In this document: positions 57 to 64,000 of the stretch, piece by piece
How the letters are laid out: each line of letters begins with the position of its first letter
Position numbering within the stretch: the stretch's first letter is position 1
Source of the DNA: Luteimonas sp. ANT-B3E
Lineage (GTDB): Bacteria; Pseudomonadota; Gammaproteobacteria; Xanthomonadales; Xanthomonadaceae
Length of the DNA: 64,000 bases
Assembly (NCBI GenBank): GCA_001683895.1
Contig: LXQJ01000029.1
Location: 1-64,000, forward strand
Direction of reading: 5' to 3'
The notes under the pieces: model-generated
Database searches by the model: none
What the model saw: only the letters and a program-made list of their open reading frames with translations
What the model was told of the DNA's origin: nothing
Position numbers and translations under genes: made by a program

Positions 57-1310
57 ATGCCACGCAAGAAGAAGTTGACCCCCGGCGCCACGCCGGGACC
101 GGAAATCCCCAAAGAGCTGCTTGAGCGGCTGGTGCCGGGGCCGATGACAGCCGACGGCTTCGAGTCGATGTTCAAGCAGTTCAAGAAGGCGTTCATCGAG
201 CGCGCCCTGGGCGCCGAGCTCGACGCCCATCTGGACAGCGACGAGGGCGCCGCCGGCCGGGGTGGTGGCAACCACCGCAACGGCCGCAGCGGCAAGACGG
301 TGCTCACCGACGACGGCCCGGTGCGGGTGGAGATCCCGCGCGACCGGGCCGGGACCTTCGAGCCGCAGCTGATCCCCAAGCATGAGCGCCGGTTTGCCGG
401 TTTTGACGACAAGATCGTGTCGATGTACGCCCGCGGCATGACCGTGCGGGAGATCCAGGGCCACCTGGCCGAGATGTACGCGGTGGAGGTGTCGCCCGAG
501 TTCATCAGCAAGGTCACCGACGCGGTCCTGGCCGAGGTGACGGCCTGGCAGGCCCGGCCGCTGGAAACGATGTATCCGGTGGTGTTCTTCGACGCGCTGC
601 GGGTGAAGATCCGCGAGGACGGCGTGGTGCGCAACAAGGCGATCTATCTGGCGCTGGGTGTGCTGGCCGACGGCACCCGCGACATCCTGGGGCTGTGGAT
701 CGAGAACACCGAGGGCGCGAAGTTCTGGATGAAGGTGTTCAACGACCTCAAGACGCACGGCGTCAACGACATCCTGATCAGCGTGACCGACGGCCTCAAG
801 GGGCTACCCGAGGCGCTGGAGGCGGTGTTCCCGGCCACCACGCTGCAGACCTGCATCGTGCACCTGATCCGCAACAGCCTGGACTACGCCAGTTGGAAAG
901 ACCGCAAGGGGCTGGCCGCCGCGCTCAAGCCGGTTTACACCGCCGCCAGCGCCCAGGCCGCGGAGGCGGCCCTGGACGACTTCGAAGCCGGGCCATGGGG
1001 CGGGCGTTTCCCGACCGTGGTCGCGTCCTGGCGGCGGGCTTGGCCACGGGTGGTGCCATTCTTCGCGTTCCCGCCCGACGTGCGCAGGATCATCTACACC
1101 ACCAACGCCATCGAGAGCGTGCATGCGCGGCTACGCAAGATCATCAAGACGCGAGGGCACTTTCCCAGCGACGAGGCGGCCAGCAAACTCATCTGGCTGG
1201 CCCTACGCAACATCACGGCCGACTGGCGCCGCGCCACCCGGGAATGGAAGGCCGCCATGAACCAGTTCGCGATACTCTACGAAGACCGATTCACGCTGGC
1301 ACGGACCTGA
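57..1310 (+). CDS. IS256-family (mutator-type) transposase
   Basis: DDE transposase that would cut and move the surrounding element. The 417 residues match the normal family length. The catalytic triad is visible: Asp179 in FFDALRVK, Asp245 in VTDGLKGLPEA and Glu353 in TTNAIES, the signature spacing of the mutator/IS256 group. The N-terminal ~60 residues carry the family's typical FKKAFIERALGAELDAHL stretch. The ATG at 57 gives a full-length protein. No frameshift or internal stop is present, so the element may still be active or recently was. Confidence 0.93.
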   Translation: MPRKKKLTPGATPGPEIPKELLERLVPGPMTADGFESMFKQFKKAFIERALGAELDAHLDSDEGAAGRGGGNHRNGRSGKTVLTDDGPVRVEIPRDRAGTFEPQLIPKHERRFAGFDDKIVSMYARGMTVREIQGHLAEMYAVEVSPEFISKVTDAVLAEVTAWQARPLETMYPVVFFDALRVKIREDGVVRNKAIYLALGVLADGTRDILGLWIENTEGAKFWMKVFNDLKTHGVNDILISVTDGLKGLPEALEAVFPATTLQTCIVHLIRNSLDYASWKDRKGLAAALKPVYTAASAQAAEAALDDFEAGPWGGRFPTVVASWRRAWPRVVPFFAFPPDVRRIIYTTNAIESVHARLRKIIKTRGHFPSDEAASKLIWLALRNITADWRRATREWKAAMNQFAILYEDRFTLART

Positions 1311-53385: not shown

Positions 53386-55872
53386 TCAGGCCGCTTCGCG
53401 TGCCGAGGCGCCAGGCGTCCCCGCCTGCGGCTGGTCGTAGAACGACGCCGCACGCAGCTCGTGCACGTCGAAGTCGTCGACCATGATCGCGTCCAGCGTC
53501 AGCTCGCGCAGTTCCTCGAGCTGCGTGCGCTCGGCAGCAGTGATCCAGCCTTCGCGCACCCCTTCGTCCAACTGCTTGTCGAAGTCCAGCGCCTCGATGT
53601 CACTGTTCTTCAGCGCCTTGAGGAACTTGCGCTCCACCGGCTCCGCGGCCACCACTTTCGGCAGCGACGCGTGAACGCGGCCGGCCGGGTTGTTGTCGCA
53701 CGGCGTCAGGAACACGCCGTCGGCCAGGCGGTCGCGCGCCTCGCCCGGGTTCATCAGCAGCGACGCCACGCGGTGGCCCAGGCGGTCACTCGGCGCCTCG
53801 GCGCGACGCCCCAGCGGAAACACCAGCACCCACAGCAGCCAGCCCACCGGACGGATCGGGAAGTTGCGCAGCGCAGCCGACAGTGCCAGCTCGATCTTGT
53901 GCACGCTGTCGTGGAAGGCCCAGGCCAGCAGCGGCTGGTCGCCGACCTGCGAGCCCTCGTCGTGGTAGCGCTTGATCATCGCGCTGGCCATGTACAGGTG
54001 GCTCAGCACGTCGCCCAGCCGGCCTGACAGCGACTCCTTGAACTTCAGCTTGCCGCCGAGCATCAGCATCGACACGTCGCCGACCAGCGCCAGGTTGGCC
54101 GAGTACCGGTCCATCTTGCGGAAGTAGCGGCGCGTGTAGTCGTCACCGGGCGCCTTGCCGACCTTGGCCCCGGTCAGCCCGTACCAGAACGAGCGTACCG
54201 CGTTGGAGATCGCGAAGCCGATGTGGCCGAACAGGTTGTGGTCGAACTCCTCCAGCCCTGCGCGCGCATCCGGGTTCTGCGCGGCGCGCATCTCCTTGAG
54301 CACCCACGGATGGCAGAGGATCGCGCCCTGGCCGAAGATCAGCAGGCTGCGGGTCATGATGTTGGCGCCCTCGACGGTGATGCCGATCGGCGACGCCTGC
54401 CAGCCGCGCCCCAGGTAGTTGCGCGGGCCGAGAATGATGCCCTTGCCACCGTGCACGTCCATCGCGTCGCCGATGACCTCTCGCGCCATCGTCGTGCAGT
54501 GGTACTTGGCGATCGCCGACGGCACCGCCGGCTTCTCTCCGCGATCGACCGCTGCCGCGGTGGCCTGGGCCAGGGCGCTGGTGATGTAGGCCTTGCCGCC
54601 GATGCGCGCGAGTGCCTCCTCCACGCCCTCGAAACGGCCGATCGACAGGCCGAACTGCTTGCGGATGCGCGCATAGGCGCCGGTGACCACGGCGCCGGAC
54701 TTGCAGCCGCCGCTGGACGTCGCCGGCAGCGTGATCGAGCGGCCGATGGACAGGCACTCGTTGAGCATGGCCCAGCCGTGGCCGGCACAGTCTTCACCGC
54801 CGATCAGCTGCGACAGCGGAATGAACACCTCTCGGCCCTGGATCGGCCCGTTCTGGAACGGCGAGTTGAGCGGGAAATGCCGGCGGCCGATCTCGACCCC
54901 GGGCGTCTCGCGCGGCAGCAGCGCCAGGGTGATGCCGATGTCCTCGACGTCACCGATCATGCCGTCCGGGTCGTACATGCGGAACGCCAGCCCGATGATC
55001 GATGCCACCGGCGCCAGCGTGATGTAGCGCTTGTCGAAGGTCAGCTTGACGCCGACCACCTGCGCGCCCTCCCACTCGCCCTGGCAGACGATGCCGTAGT
55101 CGGGAATCGAGGTGGCGTCCGAACCGGCGAACGGCCCGGTCAGCCCGAAGCAGGGCACCTCGCGTCCGTCGGCGAGCCGGGGCAGGTAGTACTCCTTCTG
55201 CTCCTGGGTGCCGTAGTGCATCAGCAGCTCGCCCGGGCCGAGCGAATTCGGCACGCCGACGGTTGAGCTGACCACGCTCGACACCGACGCGATCTTCTGG
55301 ATCACCTTGTGGTGCGCGAACGCGGAGAAGCCGAGCCCGCCGTACTCCTTCGGGATGATCAGGCCGAAGAACCTCTGCTGCTTCAGGTACGTCCACATCG
55401 CGGGCGGCAGGTCGACGAGGACGTGGGTGATCTCCCAGTCGTTGGTCATCCGGCACAGCGTCTCGACCGGGCCGTCGAGGAACGCCTGCTCCTCTGCGGT
55501 CAGCACGGGCTTTGGCTGCGACAGCAGCACGTCCCAGGCCGGGCGGCCCGAGAACAGCTCGCCTTCGAAACCCACCGAACCGGACTCGAGCGCGATGCGC
55601 TCGGTCTGCGACAGCGGCGGCAGGATCTTCCGGTAGAAGGTCAGCAGCGGTGCGGTGATGTAGGGCTTGCGGATCTGCGGCACCAGCAGCGGCACCGCGA
55701 TTGCCGCCACGAGCAGCGTCACGATCGCGGTAGCGACCCCGGACGCGCCGAGAAGCCAGGCTGCGACCAGCAGGGTCGCGGTGAGTGCCACCCACGTGGC
55801 AAGGCGCATGCGGTGGTAGGCCGCGAACGCGCCCGCCAGTAGCAGGATCAGAAAGGGAATGGCGATGGTCAT
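53386..55872 (-). CDS. fadE: Long-chain acyl-CoA dehydrogenase FadE
   Basis: First enzyme of fatty-acid beta-oxidation, of the large FadE type (828 aa). Two N-terminal hydrophobic helices (~1-60) anchor it to the membrane. IIPKEYGGLGFSAFAH and the substrate/FAD region GLTGPFAGSDATSIPD follow. ATSSGGCKSGAVVTGAYARIR and IGDAMDVHGGKGIILGPRNY complete the dehydrogenase core. The C-terminal ~280 residues match the FadE-specific extension. The start at 55872 (MTIAIPFLILLL) gives the first helix. It is divergent from a TetR gene, its likely regulator. Confidence 0.94.
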   Translation of the reverse strand: MTIAIPFLILLLAGAFAAYHRMRLATWVALTATLLVAAWLLGASGVATAIVTLLVAAIAVPLLVPQIRKPYITAPLLTFYRKILPPLSQTERIALESGSVGFEGELFSGRPAWDVLLSQPKPVLTAEEQAFLDGPVETLCRMTNDWEITHVLVDLPPAMWTYLKQQRFFGLIIPKEYGGLGFSAFAHHKVIQKIASVSSVVSSTVGVPNSLGPGELLMHYGTQEQKEYYLPRLADGREVPCFGLTGPFAGSDATSIPDYGIVCQGEWEGAQVVGVKLTFDKRYITLAPVASIIGLAFRMYDPDGMIGDVEDIGITLALLPRETPGVEIGRRHFPLNSPFQNGPIQGREVFIPLSQLIGGEDCAGHGWAMLNECLSIGRSITLPATSSGGCKSGAVVTGAYARIRKQFGLSIGRFEGVEEALARIGGKAYITSALAQATAAAVDRGEKPAVPSAIAKYHCTTMAREVIGDAMDVHGGKGIILGPRNYLGRGWQASPIGITVEGANIMTRSLLIFGQGAILCHPWVLKEMRAAQNPDARAGLEEFDHNLFGHIGFAISNAVRSFWYGLTGAKVGKAPGDDYTRRYFRKMDRYSANLALVGDVSMLMLGGKLKFKESLSGRLGDVLSHLYMASAMIKRYHDEGSQVGDQPLLAWAFHDSVHKIELALSAALRNFPIRPVGWLLWVLVFPLGRRAEAPSDRLGHRVASLLMNPGEARDRLADGVFLTPCDNNPAGRVHASLPKVVAAEPVERKFLKALKNSDIEALDFDKQLDEGVREGWITAAERTQLEELRELTLDAIMVDDFDVHELRAASFYDQPQAGTPGASAREAA

Positions 55873-55963
55873 GGCATGGGCTCCGGCGAGCGCTGGCTCG
55901 GATGTCGGGTCGCGGTATCGCGTCTTGCGCGTAGGCCCGGGCACGGCGGGACCGCCGGCTTGA

Positions 55964-55981
55964 CCATACGGGCAAGTATGG
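55964..55981. promoter_or_regulatory. Palindrome between fadE and tetR (probable TetR operator)
   Basis: CCATAC, a six-base spacer and GTATGG form a perfect inverted repeat in the 202-base divergent gap. A related half-site cluster, GTATGGATAC, lies at 56056-56065 just before tetR. The spacing fits binding by a TetR dimer controlling both promoters. Confidence 0.55.
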
Positions 55982-56074
55982 AGAAGGGTGCCGGGCTGTG
56001 TCAACGTCACGGCACACGATCGCCCGCGGAGTTCGATACTGTTCCATGCATCAGCGTATGGATACACTCCGGCC

Positions 56075-56698
56075 ATGAAGAGCACAGCGGCACGGGCGCC
56101 CGACGGCGGCGTCATCCCGGCCCCCCGGGCGGCGAGGACAGAGCGCGGAAGGCTGAGCGCCGATGATTGGGCCGAGGCCGCGCTCGACCTGATCGCCGAG
56201 CAGGGCATCGCGGCATTGGCGGTCGAACCGCTTGCGCGCCGGCTGGGCGTCACCAAGGGCAGCTTCTACTGGCATTTTCCGTCGCGCGACGCACTGCTGC
56301 AGGCCGCACTGGAGCGCTGGGAGACGGTCGAGCAGGAGGAGGTCTTTGGCAGGCTGGCCGCGCTGCCGGACCCACGTGAGCGCTTGGGTGCGCTGTTCCA
56401 GCTGGTCGCGCACGAGTTCAAGTCGCACGTGGTCTACAGTGCGCTGCTGAAGGCGCTCGACCATCCCGCGGTGCAGCCGGTCATCGAGCGCGTGTCGCAG
56501 CGGCGCCTCGACTACCTGACTGCGTCCTTCAGGCAGACGGGGCTCGGACGTACCGAAGCCGTGCACCGGGCGCGGCTGACCTATGCGGCCTACGTCGGTT
56601 TCCTGCAGCTCAACCTGCAGCTGCACCAGGCGCGGATGCCGCAGGACGAGTTCGAGGACTATGTCGCGCACCTGACGCGGACCCTCGTTCCCGCCTGA
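56075..56698 (+). CDS. TetR-family transcriptional regulator
   Basis: Protein of 207 aa. The N-terminal helix-turn-helix spans ~30-75: WAEAALDLIAEQGIAALAVE, then RRLGVTKGSFYWHFPSRDALL, the classic TetR recognition helix. The C-terminal ligand domain ends QARMPQDEFEDYVAHLTRTL. The first ~25 residues are a flexible Ala/Pro-rich tail; a later start is possible. The divergent position next to fadE suggests control of fatty-acid degradation, probably with an acyl-CoA or fatty acid as signal (inference). Confidence 0.9.
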   Translation: MKSTAARAPDGGVIPAPRAARTERGRLSADDWAEAALDLIAEQGIAALAVEPLARRLGVTKGSFYWHFPSRDALLQAALERWETVEQEEVFGRLAALPDPRERLGALFQLVAHEFKSHVVYSALLKALDHPAVQPVIERVSQRRLDYLTASFRQTGLGRTEAVHRARLTYAAYVGFLQLNLQLHQARMPQDEFEDYVAHLTRTLVPA

Positions 56699-58804: not shown

Positions 58805-60232
58805 TCAACGGATGGATTGGGCGTGACGAAACGCGTGCTCCGGGTCGTATTGTCGTTTGATCTCCAGTAACCGGGGATAGGTATCTCCGTAATAGGCTTG
58901 AGCCCAATTGTCCAGGCGAAGATCGGCATAGCCTTGGTACACATGGCCACTTGCATGCCGACTGAGGGTCGCCTGTGAAGCATCGACCCACTGCCGTGCA
59001 TGGTTACGCAGGTCCTCCGTGGAGCGCGCGCCGACCATTACTGTATGGCGGATCAACATGCGCGGTGTGCGATGCAGGAAGCATGCGGCCGCGTTTTTGC
59101 GGGTATAAGCCCCTCCCCATGGAACGATCTCCAGTTCGCGGAACTCTGGGTAGCGCCGATCGTCCTGGAACCGAGACACGCATTCCCGGATCGCGTCGAT
59201 GCCTAGATGACCTTCAAAGAAATCCGAACGCGTGAATTGGTAGCCGGTCTGTTGATACGGACGGCTTGGTTGCCATGCCTTTGCAGTTTCGTGACTGAGC
59301 AGACCGACCAGATAGCCGGCCGCAGCGGATGCAGCAAGTGACCAAGTGTGCAGATTGCCAGCCAAGGCCCCCAGGAAACGGGACACCTCCGTCAGATGGG
59401 TTGTCGTCTGGACGGGATTGCCAAGGACAATGCCGAATAGTTCGATATGTCCGGCATCCTCCGGATCATCTGGTCCGTACAGACCGAGTTCCAGATTGAT
59501 GTCCTGACTGGCGTCTGGTGCCCATTGTTGCCAGCGGTCGATCAATCCGACGGCTTCATGCAGCGGCCAGACCCCCCGGCAGACAGTCAATCCATTCAGT
59601 GGGTAGGAGCGAAGTGTGATCCCGGTGACGATGCCCAAGCCAGCAGTACCGGCCCCGCGCAACGCCCAAAACAGTTCCGGATTGCTGTCGGTAGAAGCTT
59701 CCAGAACACGCCCGTCGGCGGTTACGACCTGCAGACTCTCGACCTGGTCTGTCGTCAACCCATAACGACGACCCAGAAACCCGAACCCACCGGCCAAGCT
59801 TAGACCGCCGAGCGCCACCCAAGGGCATCCGCCAGTGGGAAGCACGTGACCATGAGCAGCCAAGGCTCGGCTGAGGTCCGCTGCACAGATGCCGGGCTGT
59901 ATTCGAACCGACGCATCGCCGTGCTCGATCCGGTTCATCTCGCTCAGATCGACTATGGCACTGGCGCTGGAGGAAAGATCAGCAAAACAGTGGCCACCGC
60001 TGCGTACCGAAAAAGGGATTTGGTGCAAGCGAAGGAACTCCAGCGATGCGCGCACATCGCTGAGTCCTTCACAGCGCAGCAGTGCCCGCGGAAAGGCAAG
60101 AGCTTTGCCGGCAGCGAAGTGCTTACCTGCGAGCACCATGCGCTCGTCGCCGGGACGCACCACTACGCCCTGCAATCGGCTCTGTAGTGCAGACCAGTCG
60201 ATCGCGCCGAGGCGATCCTGGTCCTCAGTCAT
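58805..60232 (-). CDS. Berberine-bridge-type FAD-linked oxidase in a lanthipeptide operon
   Basis: Secondary-metabolism oxidase of 475 aa. The PCMH-type FAD domain carries His81 in RSGGHCFADLS and Cys136 in LPTGGCPWVALGG, the pair that links FAD doubly and covalently in this family. LSLAGGFGFLGRRYGLTTDQ and ELFWALRGAGTAGLGIVT are further FAD contacts. The C-terminal BBE motif is NWAQAYYGDTYPRLLEIKRQ then YDPEHAFR. The start at 60232 overlaps the ABC gene end by eight bases. In this operon it is likely a tailoring enzyme for a peptide. No leader peptide or secretion signal is visible, so it acts in the cytoplasm. Confidence 0.88.
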   Translation of the reverse strand: MTEDQDRLGAIDWSALQSRLQGVVVRPGDERMVLAGKHFAAGKALAFPRALLRCEGLSDVRASLEFLRLHQIPFSVRSGGHCFADLSSSASAIVDLSEMNRIEHGDASVRIQPGICAADLSRALAAHGHVLPTGGCPWVALGGLSLAGGFGFLGRRYGLTTDQVESLQVVTADGRVLEASTDSNPELFWALRGAGTAGLGIVTGITLRSYPLNGLTVCRGVWPLHEAVGLIDRWQQWAPDASQDINLELGLYGPDDPEDAGHIELFGIVLGNPVQTTTHLTEVSRFLGALAGNLHTWSLAASAAAGYLVGLLSHETAKAWQPSRPYQQTGYQFTRSDFFEGHLGIDAIRECVSRFQDDRRYPEFRELEIVPWGGAYTRKNAAACFLHRTPRMLIRHTVMVGARSTEDLRNHARQWVDASQATLSRHASGHVYQGYADLRLDNWAQAYYGDTYPRLLEIKRQYDPEHAFRHAQSIR

Positions 60233-62117
60233 CACGCTCTTCCAATCCGTGCAATTTGGTCTGGAGGCGATAGAGTTCGGCGTAACGTCCGTCCATCTGC
60301 AGCAACTCCGGATGGCGACCGTATTCAACCAGGCTCCCTCGTTCCAGCAAGAAAATTTGATCCGCGTTGCGGATGCTGGCGAGACGGTGGGTGATGAGGA
60401 TGACAGTCCGATCGCGAGCCAGCTTGCGCAGAGACTCGTAGACGGCATGCTCGGCCTTCGCGTCCAGCGGCGCGGTCGGTTCGTCCCAGATCACCAGCGG
60501 TGCGTCCCGATACAGGCCACGGGCGACGGCCAGGCGCTGCCACTGGCCTGCCGACAGATCCTGCCCTCCATGGAACTCGGGAGAAAGCAATGTCTGCCAA
60601 CCCTCCGGCAACCCCTCAATCACTTCTAACGCGCGGGCTTGTTTCGCCGCTTCCAGCAGCGCCGCAGCATCAGGATCGATGCGTGTATGGCGACCAAGAC
60701 GCACATTGTCGAGGGCGCTGCGTGGCCAGCGGATCGGTCCCTGTTGCACCATGACAACGCGATCGGCAAGGCTTTCAGACGCCATCTCCAACAGGTCGAC
60801 GCCATCCCAGGTAATCTGGCCGGAGCTCGGGTGGTATAGACCTGCAATCAGTTTGGCCAGTGTGGTCTTGCCCGAACCGTTTTCGCCAACTAGCGCGATG
60901 GTCTGACCAGGCTCGATAACCATAGAAATCTCGCGCAACGCCATACCACGGTCGACGCCCGGATAACAAAAGCTGACCTGATTCAGTTTGATGCGCCCCG
61001 GATGCGTCGGCGCACTGGCGCTCTTTGCGGGGCGGCTGCGCTGCGTCGACTGTTCGACAAACTCGCGATAGTCGGTAATGTACAGTCCCTTCTCGAAAAG
61101 CTCATGGGCCATCTGCATCAGCCTGGCCAGAGATGCACTTGTGCTTCGAATCGCGATGACTGCCGTTCCTGCCACGGCCAGATCAAGCCACTGCGCGTGC
61201 AGCATCAGCGCCAGAGCTAAGAAGGTGCCGACCAGCCCCAGGCCGGAGAGGAAGCGGCCCCAAGCCATTGACCTTGCTTCTGCCAACCCCAGGTTCACCA
61301 GATGATCCTGCAGAAGAGTGGCGCAGCGGCCGTATTCGGACAGGACATAATCCTGCGCCTGGTTGGCCCGAATCTCGGGCGCAGACTCGCGCTGGGTGGC
61401 CAGTTCAGCCATCATTTGCGTCTGTCGGGTGAGTGCGATCGTGGTCGGCATGCCGGCATACTGCAAACGGGCGGCGTTCAGAGCCGCCCACCCTTCCGGA
61501 AGTAGTGCTAGCACCAGAATCAGCAATAAAACAGGATGCAACCAGAGCAGGGCGACGGCTGCGCCCGCAACGGCGAAGGCCGCGCTAAGGGCTTCGACCA
61601 GACTGGCGGTTGCGCCCTCCATGTGCATCACGCCGCGGTCGCGTGCGCGATGCAGTTGATCGTAGAAGCCGGGATCGTCAAACGACGCCAGGTCCACCTG
61701 CAGACTGACCCGGAACAGGTCCTCCTCGGCGAGGCGATGCACCTTTGGGACCATACGGGCTTTGGCCATTTGCGTGCCAACGTCCATGGCCATACGGATC
61801 AAGTGCGCAACACCCAGCAGAAGCAACCCGGGCAGCGCGGCGCGCAGTCGTTCCGGGCTCGGCCCGCCTGCGAGTAGCTGACCCAAGACATGGGTGGTCA
61901 ATAGCAGTGCCCAGGCGGTGGAGGCGCCAGAAAATAGTTGGGTCACCACCACAGCCAGCGAGGATCCGGGCGCGGCGCGTCGAAGAACACTCAACACCGG
62001 CCGCACCGCCAAGCCCAAGCGCCGCGTCAGCGATAAAAGCCCGGAAGCCGACTGGGGACCATCCTCCAGACGCCAGTAGGGCGAATGCAGCTTTTCGCGG
62101 CCCGCTTCGGTACTCAG
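60225..62117 (-). CDS. ABC exporter (fused membrane and ATPase domains), probable CTG start
   Basis: Half-transporter of 630 aa. A six-helix membrane domain (residues ~60-330) is followed by an ATPase with LVGENGSGKTTLAKLIAGLY (Walker A), DLSAGQWQRLAVARGLYRDA (signature), VIWDEPTAPLD (Walker B) and ILITHRLASI (H loop). No C39 peptidase domain is present, so it does not cut leader peptides itself. The first ATG/GTG/TTG-type start (TTG, 62018) would cut off ~33 residues of good coding sequence. A CTG at 62117 overlaps the lanM stop (CTGA) and follows GGAGGG by eight bases. It probably exports the modified peptide or gives immunity. Confidence 0.88.
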   Translation of the reverse strand: MSTEAGREKLHSPYWRLEDGPQSASGLLSLTRRLGLAVRPVLSVLRRAAPGSSLAVVVTQLFSGASTAWALLLTTHVLGQLLAGGPSPERLRAALPGLLLLGVAHLIRMAMDVGTQMAKARMVPKVHRLAEEDLFRVSLQVDLASFDDPGFYDQLHRARDRGVMHMEGATASLVEALSAAFAVAGAAVALLWLHPVLLLILVLALLPEGWAALNAARLQYAGMPTTIALTRQTQMMAELATQRESAPEIRANQAQDYVLSEYGRCATLLQDHLVNLGLAEARSMAWGRFLSGLGLVGTFLALALMLHAQWLDLAVAGTAVIAIRSTSASLARLMQMAHELFEKGLYITDYREFVEQSTQRSRPAKSASAPTHPGRIKLNQVSFCYPGVDRGMALREISMVIEPGQTIALVGENGSGKTTLAKLIAGLYHPSSGQITWDGVDLLEMASESLADRVVMVQQGPIRWPRSALDNVRLGRHTRIDPDAAALLEAAKQARALEVIEGLPEGWQTLLSPEFHGGQDLSAGQWQRLAVARGLYRDAPLVIWDEPTAPLDAKAEHAVYESLRKLARDRTVILITHRLASIRNADQIFLLERGSLVEYGRHPELLQMDGRYAELYRLQTKLHGLEERDD

Positions 62118-64000
62118 AATTCGCTCCCTCCGGGTATCAGGATCGAGGGCAAGGCGCTGTCAGGATGCGCCCTGAGCAGTTGGTAGGCGATGCCGCCCAC
62201 GCCGGTCATGAGGGCTGGCGCAAAAGCATCCCGCGCCATTCCACAGGAAGGCCCGTGATCCTCGAGGCTGGTCAGGATCAACCCGAGCAGTTGCTCACTA
62301 GATAACCCTTCTGGCCCCTCACCGGCACCAATTGCCTGCTCGAGCAATTCCCAAGCGCCCAGGTCGCCGTGGCAGGTGCAGTGATTCCAGCCAAGACCGA
62401 GGCGCCAGGTTGCGGCCGCGGATTGGCGCACTATTTTCCGCGTACGCGTATGCGCGAGTCGCGGATCCAGATCGGCATGGGCCAGTCCGATGCCAACCGA
62501 ACCATGGCACCAGACGGCAGCAGTTTTGGCGCCCTCGAGCATGCGCAGATCCAGCCAGTTCTGCTCCTCCTCGTCGAAGAGCGCATCCTCGAAGGCAAAC
62601 GCAGCTTGCGCTGTCTGCAGGTGGCGCGGCTCACCCGTCTCGCGAGCTAGTCTGGTCAGGGCCCAGCCGATGCCGGTGACGCCGTGCGCGAACCCGCCGA
62701 CGCCTTCCGGCCATTGGCTATGGCTCCAGAATGCCCGATCCTCTTTGCGCCGGGCCTGCTCGCATAGCCGATCACCAAACTGCCACGCCATTCCCAGGTA
62801 GCGCTCGTCCGCCGTCTTTCGTGCAAGGGCAAGCAGAGGAACGATCGCCCCCGCCGTGCCGGAAAGCATGTCGTGCATTTCATCGGCCGCAACGGCTTCG
62901 GGAATACCTGCGGCCAATGTACAGGCGCGTTCCAGCCAATTACCTCCTTTGATGTCCCAGTGCGCCAATGCCAGGTACATCCAGATCTGCGATCCCAGAC
63001 CGATGTAGGCGCCCGGCGCCGGCGGTCGAATCCTGATGCCCTGCTTGCGCAGACCCGCGCGCTTGGCCTCAGCCAGATCCAGAGTGCGCAGCGTAGCGGC
63101 GAACAGAGCTTCAAGACCCGCCACTGGGTCGGCGCGCCCGGCCGCGGTTTCGCGTAGGTACGCCCCTGCCAGGAGTGCGATGCCGGAAGTCCCGTTGTAC
63201 AAATCCTGTTCCAGCGGCTGTACCGCCCAGCCCGTTGGACTGAGAACCGGGGCGATCCATGCAACGCTACGATCGGCGCCATGAATGGCGTTGGTGATCA
63301 GGCCCCTAACAATCTGGGCAGCCTGACGCCGGCGGCGTCTGTCCAGATCGCCCGCGCGAACGCGCTTGGGCAGCAGCGAAGCACCATCGGGCATCCATCC
63401 ATCGTTGATATAAGCGCTAACCAACGACGCCTGAATGACGTTGCGTTCGAATTTCAGGTCGGCTGAACGCCATTGCTGGAAGGCGGTTTCTGCAAGATCG
63501 CGCCGCGGCAGCCAATGGGTTCCGCGTGGCCCCTCCAGTTGCCCGTCGCGCACAAGGGTCGAAAAGAAGGGAATGTCGCCCTCCATCAGATCCTCGATTT
63601 CAGCATCAATCACTGCAGGATCACTGGGCGCCGAAGACACGTTGACGGCCATTTTTGCCAGGAGATCGCGCGCACGCTGACGTGCCGGTTCCTGCTTGTG
63701 CAGCGAAACCGGGTGCCACAACATGCGGCCCACCTCGGCATACACCTCGGTGGCTCTCGGCACGACCCGAATGCGGCAGTTGGCAAAAGCTTCGACGCGG
63801 GCTTGTAAAACACCTGCGGCATCCAGGCGTTGTAGCGTGCCGGTTATCTCATCAAAGCCGGTCAGTACTTGGGGCCAGTACTGGGCAAGCGCGGGCTGCA
63901 GGCTCGGATGATTCTGCGAGATCGGCGTCTTGATCAGCGTGGTGCCGATGTGCGCCTCGTCAGAGCCGGCTTTGAGGATGCCAGGTTGCGGTAGCAATGG
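62114..64000 (-). CDS. Class II lanthipeptide synthetase LanM (C-terminal ~628 residues; start lies outside window)
   Basis: Bifunctional enzyme that dehydrates Ser/Thr and cyclises Cys onto them in a precursor peptide. The visible part begins in the dehydratase domain (DUF4135): ILKAGSDEAHIGTTLIKT, NCRIRVVPRATEVYAEVGRM and MEGDIPFFSTL. The LanC-like cyclase follows, with LYNGTSGIALLAGAYL. Zinc ligands are in VWCHGSVGIG and CTCHGDLGAWELL. The frame is open to the window edge; the N-terminal part and any precursor gene lie beyond 64000. The stop overlaps the ABC start. GC is clearly below that of the core genes, suggesting transfer. Confidence 0.92.
   Translation of the reverse strand, partial: PLLPQPGILKAGSDEAHIGTTLIKTPISQNHPSLQPALAQYWPQVLTGFDEITGTLQRLDAAGVLQARVEAFANCRIRVVPRATEVYAEVGRMLWHPVSLHKQEPARQRARDLLAKMAVNVSSAPSDPAVIDAEIEDLMEGDIPFFSTLVRDGQLEGPRGTHWLPRRDLAETAFQQWRSADLKFERNVIQASLVSAYINDGWMPDGASLLPKRVRAGDLDRRRRRQAAQIVRGLITNAIHGADRSVAWIAPVLSPTGWAVQPLEQDLYNGTSGIALLAGAYLRETAAGRADPVAGLEALFAATLRTLDLAEAKRAGLRKQGIRIRPPAPGAYIGLGSQIWMYLALAHWDIKGGNWLERACTLAAGIPEAVAADEMHDMLSGTAGAIVPLLALARKTADERYLGMAWQFGDRLCEQARRKEDRAFWSHSQWPEGVGGFAHGVTGIGWALTRLARETGEPRHLQTAQAAFAFEDALFDEEEQNWLDLRMLEGAKTAAVWCHGSVGIGLAHADLDPRLAHTRTRKIVRQSAAATWRLGLGWNHCTCHGDLGAWELLEQAIGAGEGPEGLSSEQLLGLILTSLEDHGPSCGMARDAFAPALMTGVGGIAYQLLRAHPDSALPSILIPGGSEF

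Follow-up and report, generated by a model that had tools for sequence, protein, structure and literature searches.

Near its end, the window (the 64,000-nucleotide stretch of Luteimonas sp. ANT-B3E DNA analysed here, which forms the first part of the 148,422-base contig LXQJ01000029.1) enters an operon that encodes a berberine-bridge enzyme (BBE)-type oxidase together with a class II lanthipeptide synthetase, LanM, and an ATP-binding cassette (ABC) exporter. When the reading is extended beyond the window end, the system comprises four minus-strand genes in the order precursor-lanM-ABC-oxidase. Its gene content, order and overlaps, its recurrence in other genomes, and the cofactor residues and predicted fold of the oxidase are documented below. 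We consider it probable that these genes constitute a class II cassette of the DUF6229 kind, in which a cytosolic oxidase tailors the LanM product before export.

With TIGR03897, the synthetase reaches 574.5 bits, where the cut-off is 304, and it also exceeds the cut-offs of both PF13575 and PF05147, such that dehydratase and LanC-like cyclase domains are present. It aligns with the solved LicM2 structure across WCHG and CHG, which we take to be its zinc-site motifs, and the LanM proteins of four other oxidase-bearing operons are 960-966 amino acids long. The adjacent precursor gene is preceded by AGGAG, a ribosome-binding-like sequence. Its product ends in GTGSGQCGTACSGSFTRYCC, carries Cys residues at positions 40, 49, 53, 61 and 62, and matches Pfam DUF6229 over residues 6-62 (E 6.8e-23). 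Judged by the LanM domains and by this neighbouring precursor with its Ser/Thr/Cys-rich core, the locus has the genes of a class II lanthipeptide system. An earlier note, made from the letters of the window alone, had called it a lanthipeptide operon and had named the lack of a precursor upstream as a reason to doubt this; the LanM match and the DUF6229 precursor upstream of lanM bear out the assignment. DUF6229 is a family of precursors that includes rhodanocin, and one DUF6229 peptide has reported activity against Klebsiella (main text of PMC9576775). Among class II clusters of Lysobacter, the family accounts for 21 of 27 unique precursors (main text of PMC11451712).

The oxidase matches PF01565 (FAD_binding_4, 89.9 bits) and PF08031 (BBE, 54.9 bits), both above cut-off. 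Two residues expected to attach flavin adenine dinucleotide (FAD) can be read in its sequence, His81 within RSGGH and Cys136 within GGCPWV, and a His and a Cys occupy these places in all six enzymes of the group described below. The FAD is thus predicted to be doubly tethered, as is typical, though not universal, in the BBE subfamily, and the earlier description of a BBE-type enzyme with both attachment residues was correct. An AlphaFold model of the protein (38 sequences) has a mean predicted local distance difference test score of 92.1. Its best Foldseek match is EncM, with a template modelling score of about 0.85, and its best match by VIA-align is 6eo4, from the plant BBE-like oxidases (Z 46.2, root-mean-square deviation 2.1 over 435 residues).

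A C-terminal Y/FxN motif is described as marking the BBE subfamily and as helping to shape its oxygen pocket (main text of PMC11375781). In place of this motif, six of six oxidases in our group carry YxG, with Gly substituted for Asn. These are the enzymes of the window, of a genome of the same genus (G332), of another genus of the same family (G020), of Comamonas sp. KCTC 72670 (Betaproteobacteria), of Sphingopyxis sp. HIX (Alphaproteobacteria) and of a Burkholderiales metagenome-assembled genome. Relatives for comparison came from the genomes of 84,980 species. Among the best 80 of 568, there are 73 YxN, two FxN and one LxN sequences, one that is unreadable at this place, and three with YxG; these three are members of the present group, and 76 of the other 77 keep the Asn. 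Two further residues near the FAD-binding Cys, Ala140 and Gly142, are constant in the six enzymes, and also occur in three and four of 32 others, respectively. By its motif, the group is a divergent branch rather than a typical representative of the BBE subfamily.

The full four-gene operon is present in five genomes, namely the window's own, G332, G020, Comamonas and Sphingopyxis, and is common to at least three bacterial families. Because the same operon recurs in four other genomes, its arrangement is not due to chance. In the Burkholderiales assembly, only the ABC-oxidase pair is seen, truncated at a contig end; this oxidase would presumably be tied to a lanthipeptide as well. Identities to the window proteins (G332, G020, Comamonas and Sphingopyxis, in that order) are 66, 54, 66 and 46 percent for LanM, 72, 60, 70 and 48 percent for the ABC protein, 59, 49, 56 and 36 percent for the oxidase, and 82, 69, 63 and 60 percent for the precursor. 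Flanking genes are mostly unlike between the five operons. The exception is a pair of proteins, FadE-like by reading, whose starts are very similar and which lie near the window copy (53386-56256) and the G020 copy (L063 12547-15021), on opposite sides. We interpret the four-gene set as a cassette.

To place this cassette among its relatives, we compared 102 DUF6229 loci. Of these, 41 belong to the window's family, the window included; 59 were added, of which 10 come again from this family and 49 from a second one in the order; and the Comamonas and Sphingopyxis loci were reached through the oxidase. Three pairs of the loci overlap in the DNA covered. LanM is encoded at 101 loci, the exception being L231, a hit below threshold close to the end of a contig, and no precursor was recovered by pattern at two loci (L219 and L231). 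An ABC gene scoring over 300 bits is present at 11 loci and the oxidase at five. The oxidase never occurs alone: it accompanies five of the 11 ABC genes and is found at none of the 91 loci that lack one, an association with a Fisher p of 6e-6 on distinct precursors, uncorrected for relatedness. At those 91 loci (L046 and L047 are examples), no such exporter lies within the stretch covered. Three genomes each hold two DUF6229-lanM loci that differ in type and face one another at a distance of about 17-20 kb (L042/L072, L223/L224 and L225/L226).

This distribution bears on whether the oxidase acts on the peptide at all. It could instead be a passenger that oxidizes a small molecule, such as a sugar or an alcohol, and travels with the exporter while leaving the peptide untouched. 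Several structure-solved relatives are carbohydrate oxidases, and the enzyme is missing at 97 of the 102 loci, both as a passenger would allow. However, the ABC and oxidase frames overlap in all five operons (by 8 bases in the window, 4 in G332, 8 in G020, 14 in Comamonas and 4 in Sphingopyxis) even though the neighbouring genes mostly differ, and YxG is confined to this group among the relatives compared. Moreover, the oxidase occurs within the genus only as part of the operon: across 52 genus genomes, its profile exceeds 800 bits at the two operon copies alone, with weak matches in four other genomes that reach 87 bits at best. We therefore regard a passenger role as unlikely.

Composition and relatedness argue for horizontal transfer of the operon, as the earlier note had claimed from its lower guanine-plus-cytosine (GC) content. 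GC content at third codon positions is 0.59-0.70 in the four operon genes versus 0.82-0.92 in four flanking genes, and the LanM of Comamonas is as close to the window protein as is that of G332, from the same genus. DUF6229 matches were found in 34 of 395 genomes of the window's family and in 38 of 197 genomes of the second family. In a sample of the class, they were found in three of 369 (two the window's own or from its family, one under the cut-off), and in a sample of the phylum in three of 398, all its own or from its family. Carriage on a plasmid was considered and rejected; the closest plasmid-borne relatives share about 32% identity with the oxidase. Elsewhere on the contig, a Mutator-family transposase gene lies in a lower-GC stretch at the contig start (window 57-1310), and GC content falls to 0.53 at contig 76001-77000 (L002 18001-19000), which includes 125 unknown bases.

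The coordinates of the four genes are collected in the table. Three overlapping minus-strand genes had been described before, and the coordinates of the open reading frames agree with this. The 8-base overlap of the ABC gene with the oxidase start, which follows from the ABC stop at 60225, stands as first claimed. The 4-base overlap of lanM with the ABC gene holds only if translation of the latter begins at a CTG within CTGA (62117); its sole ATG, GTG or TTG start yields a protein of 597 amino acids. A CTG in CTGA occurs at this junction in the window, G332 and Comamonas (L002:4117, L050 and L073), that is, in three of the five oxidase operons. Sphingopyxis has GTG in GTGA at the same place, and G020 differs in that its CTG start overlaps the lanM end by 17 bases. 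In addition, the putative start is followed in all five operons by PYWR, a motif lost under the shorter reading. Because of the same-place CTG or GTG in G332, Comamonas and Sphingopyxis and the conservation of PYWR, a CTG start for the window gene is plausible. The lanM gene would begin at either a GTG 5 bases past the precursor stop (960 amino acids) or an ATG that overlaps the precursor gene (977 amino acids). Scans for sigma-70-like promoters and Rfam families gave no match, and one terminator-like hairpin was found on the opposite strand, a number near chance expectation.

Table. Genes of the lanthipeptide operon; positions are those of the window unless marked as contig positions.
Feature	Position	Strand	Remarks
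BBE-type FAD oxidase	58805..60232	-	475 aa from ATG; His81, Cys136; YQG at 432-434 replaces Y/FxN
ABC exporter	60225..62117	-	630 aa if begun at the putative CTG, 597 aa if begun at the TTG at 62018; carries an ATPase domain; no match to a C39 peptidase domain
LanM 3' part	62114..64000	-	rest of the gene lies beyond the window on this contig; a start near 64996 gives 960 aa, one at 65047 gives 977 aa
DUF6229 precursor gene	contig 65002-65190 (wholly outside window, ~1 kb past its edge)	-	62 aa; adjoins lanM

Comparison of the precursors suggests where the oxidase may act. The segment [EQ]T-x3-SG[QRK]C is found in five of five oxidase-operon precursors, in none of five distinct precursors from operons with the ABC gene alone, and in none of 86 other distinct precursors. 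Conversely, the C-terminal half of the core, CGTxC[ST]xSxTxxCC, occurs in five of five precursors of each of the first two kinds and in 5 of the 86 others. It is the N-terminal half of the core that goes with the oxidase, because the C-terminal half is also found where only the ABC gene is present. These sequences suggest that the N-terminal half is the most likely target of the enzyme. The shorter motif SG[QRK]C was dropped as a marker, since, outside the clade, 5 of 30 precursors carry it too and only the longer forms are exclusive.

The Cys residues of these peptides raise the possibility that the oxidase forms a disulfide, or that it oxidizes either Cys40, the additional N-terminal one, or the pair of Cys at the C-terminus in a reaction resembling aminovinylcysteine (AviCys) formation. 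Four of the five precursors from oxidase operons have one more Cys close to where the core begins, and every one of the five ends in CC. However, the Comamonas precursor has His at the place of the extra Cys, and three oxidase-less ABC operons have the extra Cys too; a Cys40 disulfide was set aside as the shared reaction. The CC ending is found in 45 of 46 precursors compared, and so is independent of the oxidase. Furthermore, the LanD decarboxylases have a different flavoprotein fold. Such Cys chemistry thus seems improbable to us.

Oxidation of an aryl side chain, or a Tyr or Trp crosslink as one form of the extra crosslink envisaged earlier, fares worse. The window core contains Phe57 and Tyr60, and BBE-like enzymes can act on phenols (main text of PMC11375781), such that this chemistry could apply to the window copy on its own. 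From their PAG motif onward, however, the precursors of G332 and Sphingopyxis have no Tyr or Trp, and neither has Phe, Tyr, Trp or His in its last 25 residues; removal of the leader after the Gly near residue 31 would leave a single Phe in the former and a single His in the latter. Because two of five cores lack Tyr and Trp, a reaction common to all five is unlikely to be aryl chemistry, and we consider it very improbable that the oxidase works in this way.

Across the six oxidases, the N-termini display no evident export signal by hydropathy or by inspection for paired arginines. The highest 15-residue hydropathy within the first 45 residues is 0.57, and RR occurs in this region of two of the six, unaccompanied by a hydrophobic stretch. 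Because of this, the oxidase is inferred to be cytosolic. From the foregoing we infer its substrate, site and reaction as well as the order of steps. LanM, as expected from its family, would dehydrate Ser and Thr residues and form the (methyl)lanthionine rings of the C-terminal core. With its doubly tethered FAD, the cytosolic oxidase would then abstract a hydride from the peptide that LanM has modified; the most likely site is the N-terminal half of the core, where the segment noted above is carried by oxidase operons alone. The likely outcome would be a loss of 2 Da. One option is conversion of the beta-alcohol of a surviving Thr or Ser to a ketone; another is oxidation of an amide in the backbone to give an acyl imine, which might be captured by water or by a neighbouring group. 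For the latter there is a BBE-type precedent in FmqD, which converts amide to acyl imine on a peptidyl alkaloid (main text of PMC11375781). The dedicated ABC protein would export the product, and its leader would be removed by a protease encoded elsewhere.

An intracellular oxidase could also serve to protect the producer by inactivating the peptide inside the cell, like NapU, which can overoxidize naphthyridinomycin (main text of PMC11375781). No other gene common to the flanks of the five operons was seen, which fits such a role. A dedicated exporter, however, would then ship an inactive product, and nothing tested favours self-protection; we give it very little credence next to tailoring before export.

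The protease that removes the leader does not appear to be part of the cassette. The ATPase domain of the ABC protein is matched and a C39 domain is not, as the earlier note had held in calling the exporter peptidase-less, so the protein does not conform to LanT, which is defined by an N-terminal C39 domain. No C39 match was found in scans of the genome that contains the window (89% complete) or of G020 (99% complete). Across 19 DUF6229-bearing genomes, matches are present in 14 and lacking in five (G000, G020, G118, G343 and G370), of which G000 and G020 hold the full operon. A C39 protease acting in trans was therefore set aside as a general answer, though one may serve in the 14 genomes with a match. 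An S9-family peptidase, with a start that by eye resembles a secretion signal, is encoded on the minus strand outside the window (contig 65401-67398), 210 bases upstream of the precursor gene. It has relatives in all 52 genus genomes (among the matches listed, those from other genomes are 26-37% identical, with no close counterpart), and the other four operons have no S9-like gene nearby, apart from an opposite-strand hydrolase in Comamonas (28% match). We treat this peptidase as a neighbour, and the earlier suggestion of a separate leader protease within the system is not borne out.

Several observations weigh against tailoring of the peptide by an oxidase that belongs to the cassette. Trees of LanM show the oxidase label dispersed, with five changes for five rows, a number reached in 500 of 500 shuffles; repeated loss or transfer is therefore needed. 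Two same-genus LanM relatives that stand beside the window copy on the tree lack both the ABC gene and the oxidase. The N-terminal core segment is known from five sequences only and may reflect shared ancestry, and SG[QRK]CGT also occurs in 4 of the 86 precursors from loci with neither ABC gene nor oxidase. The substrate of the oxidase may be something other than the peptide, and the change from Asn to Gly may lower its use of oxygen, in which case the enzyme is perhaps a dehydrogenase. The ABC tree, which is mostly unresolved, weakly clusters the oxidase label and counts in favour of the main reading: two changes suffice, as few being seen in 10 of 500 shuffles. The gene trees leave out rows L195 and L204, and we do not claim a single gain of the oxidase.

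The known lanthipeptide oxidoreductases include LanD and MibO/MibH. Others are LanJA and LanJB, as well as FAD-dependent oxidoreductases encoded near class IV genes (PMC7268733). All of these resemble the present enzyme in being redox proteins encoded with synthetases, but they belong to other families as far as these are named, and none is called BBE-type in passages of PMC7268733. Among the closest described systems is rhodanocin (LanII of Dyella sp. 333MFSha), which likewise combines a DUF6229 precursor with a class II synthetase in a gammaproteobacterium. Rhodanocin has a putative double-Gly motif, at which the protease LahT150 did not cut, and its rings use Cys8, Cys11 and Cys23 of the fragment, whereas the Cys spacing of the window precursor differs. 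The window operon also adds the exporter and the oxidase, and the word "oxidase" is absent from the main text on rhodanocin (PMC9576775). The Lysobacter clusters share the precursor family, and neither "oxidase" nor "FAD" occurs in their main text (PMC11451712). Conversely, BBE-like oxidases such as EncM, the plant BBE-like enzymes, GilR and Dbv29 are like the window enzyme in predicted fold, in PF01565 and PF08031, and in the attachment His and Cys, but the Asn of the Y/FxN motif is replaced by Gly in all six members of our group; the main text of the review that covers them has no words starting with "RiPP", "ribosomal" or "lanthi" (PMC11375781). A BBE-like oxidase reported in PMC12402327 lies in a fibrostatin cluster, with the lanthipeptide cluster separate, and that of PMC10100901 belongs to a carbazole cluster. 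Among the papers listed in searches of the open-access literature, passages of PMC10783134 included, we found no BBE-type oxidase linked to a lanthipeptide. A published close relative of the system with this oxidase, which would have spoken against a new system, thus did not emerge from those papers.

On alkaloids, sugars and polyketides, BBE-type oxidases carry out ring closures and difficult oxidations of C-H and C-N bonds. It is possible, if somewhat doubtful, that the operon makes a lanthipeptide bearing an oxidation not known in the class, such as a bridge-forming acyl imine or a beta-ketone in the N-terminal ring segment, installed by a YxG branch of BBE-type enzymes acting on a macrocyclic ribosomal peptide. 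The operon couples a BBE-type oxidase to a lanthipeptide, with a group-specific change in the oxygen-pocket motif. The precursor segment confined to oxidase operons suggests where in the peptide to look, and the reaction is directly testable.

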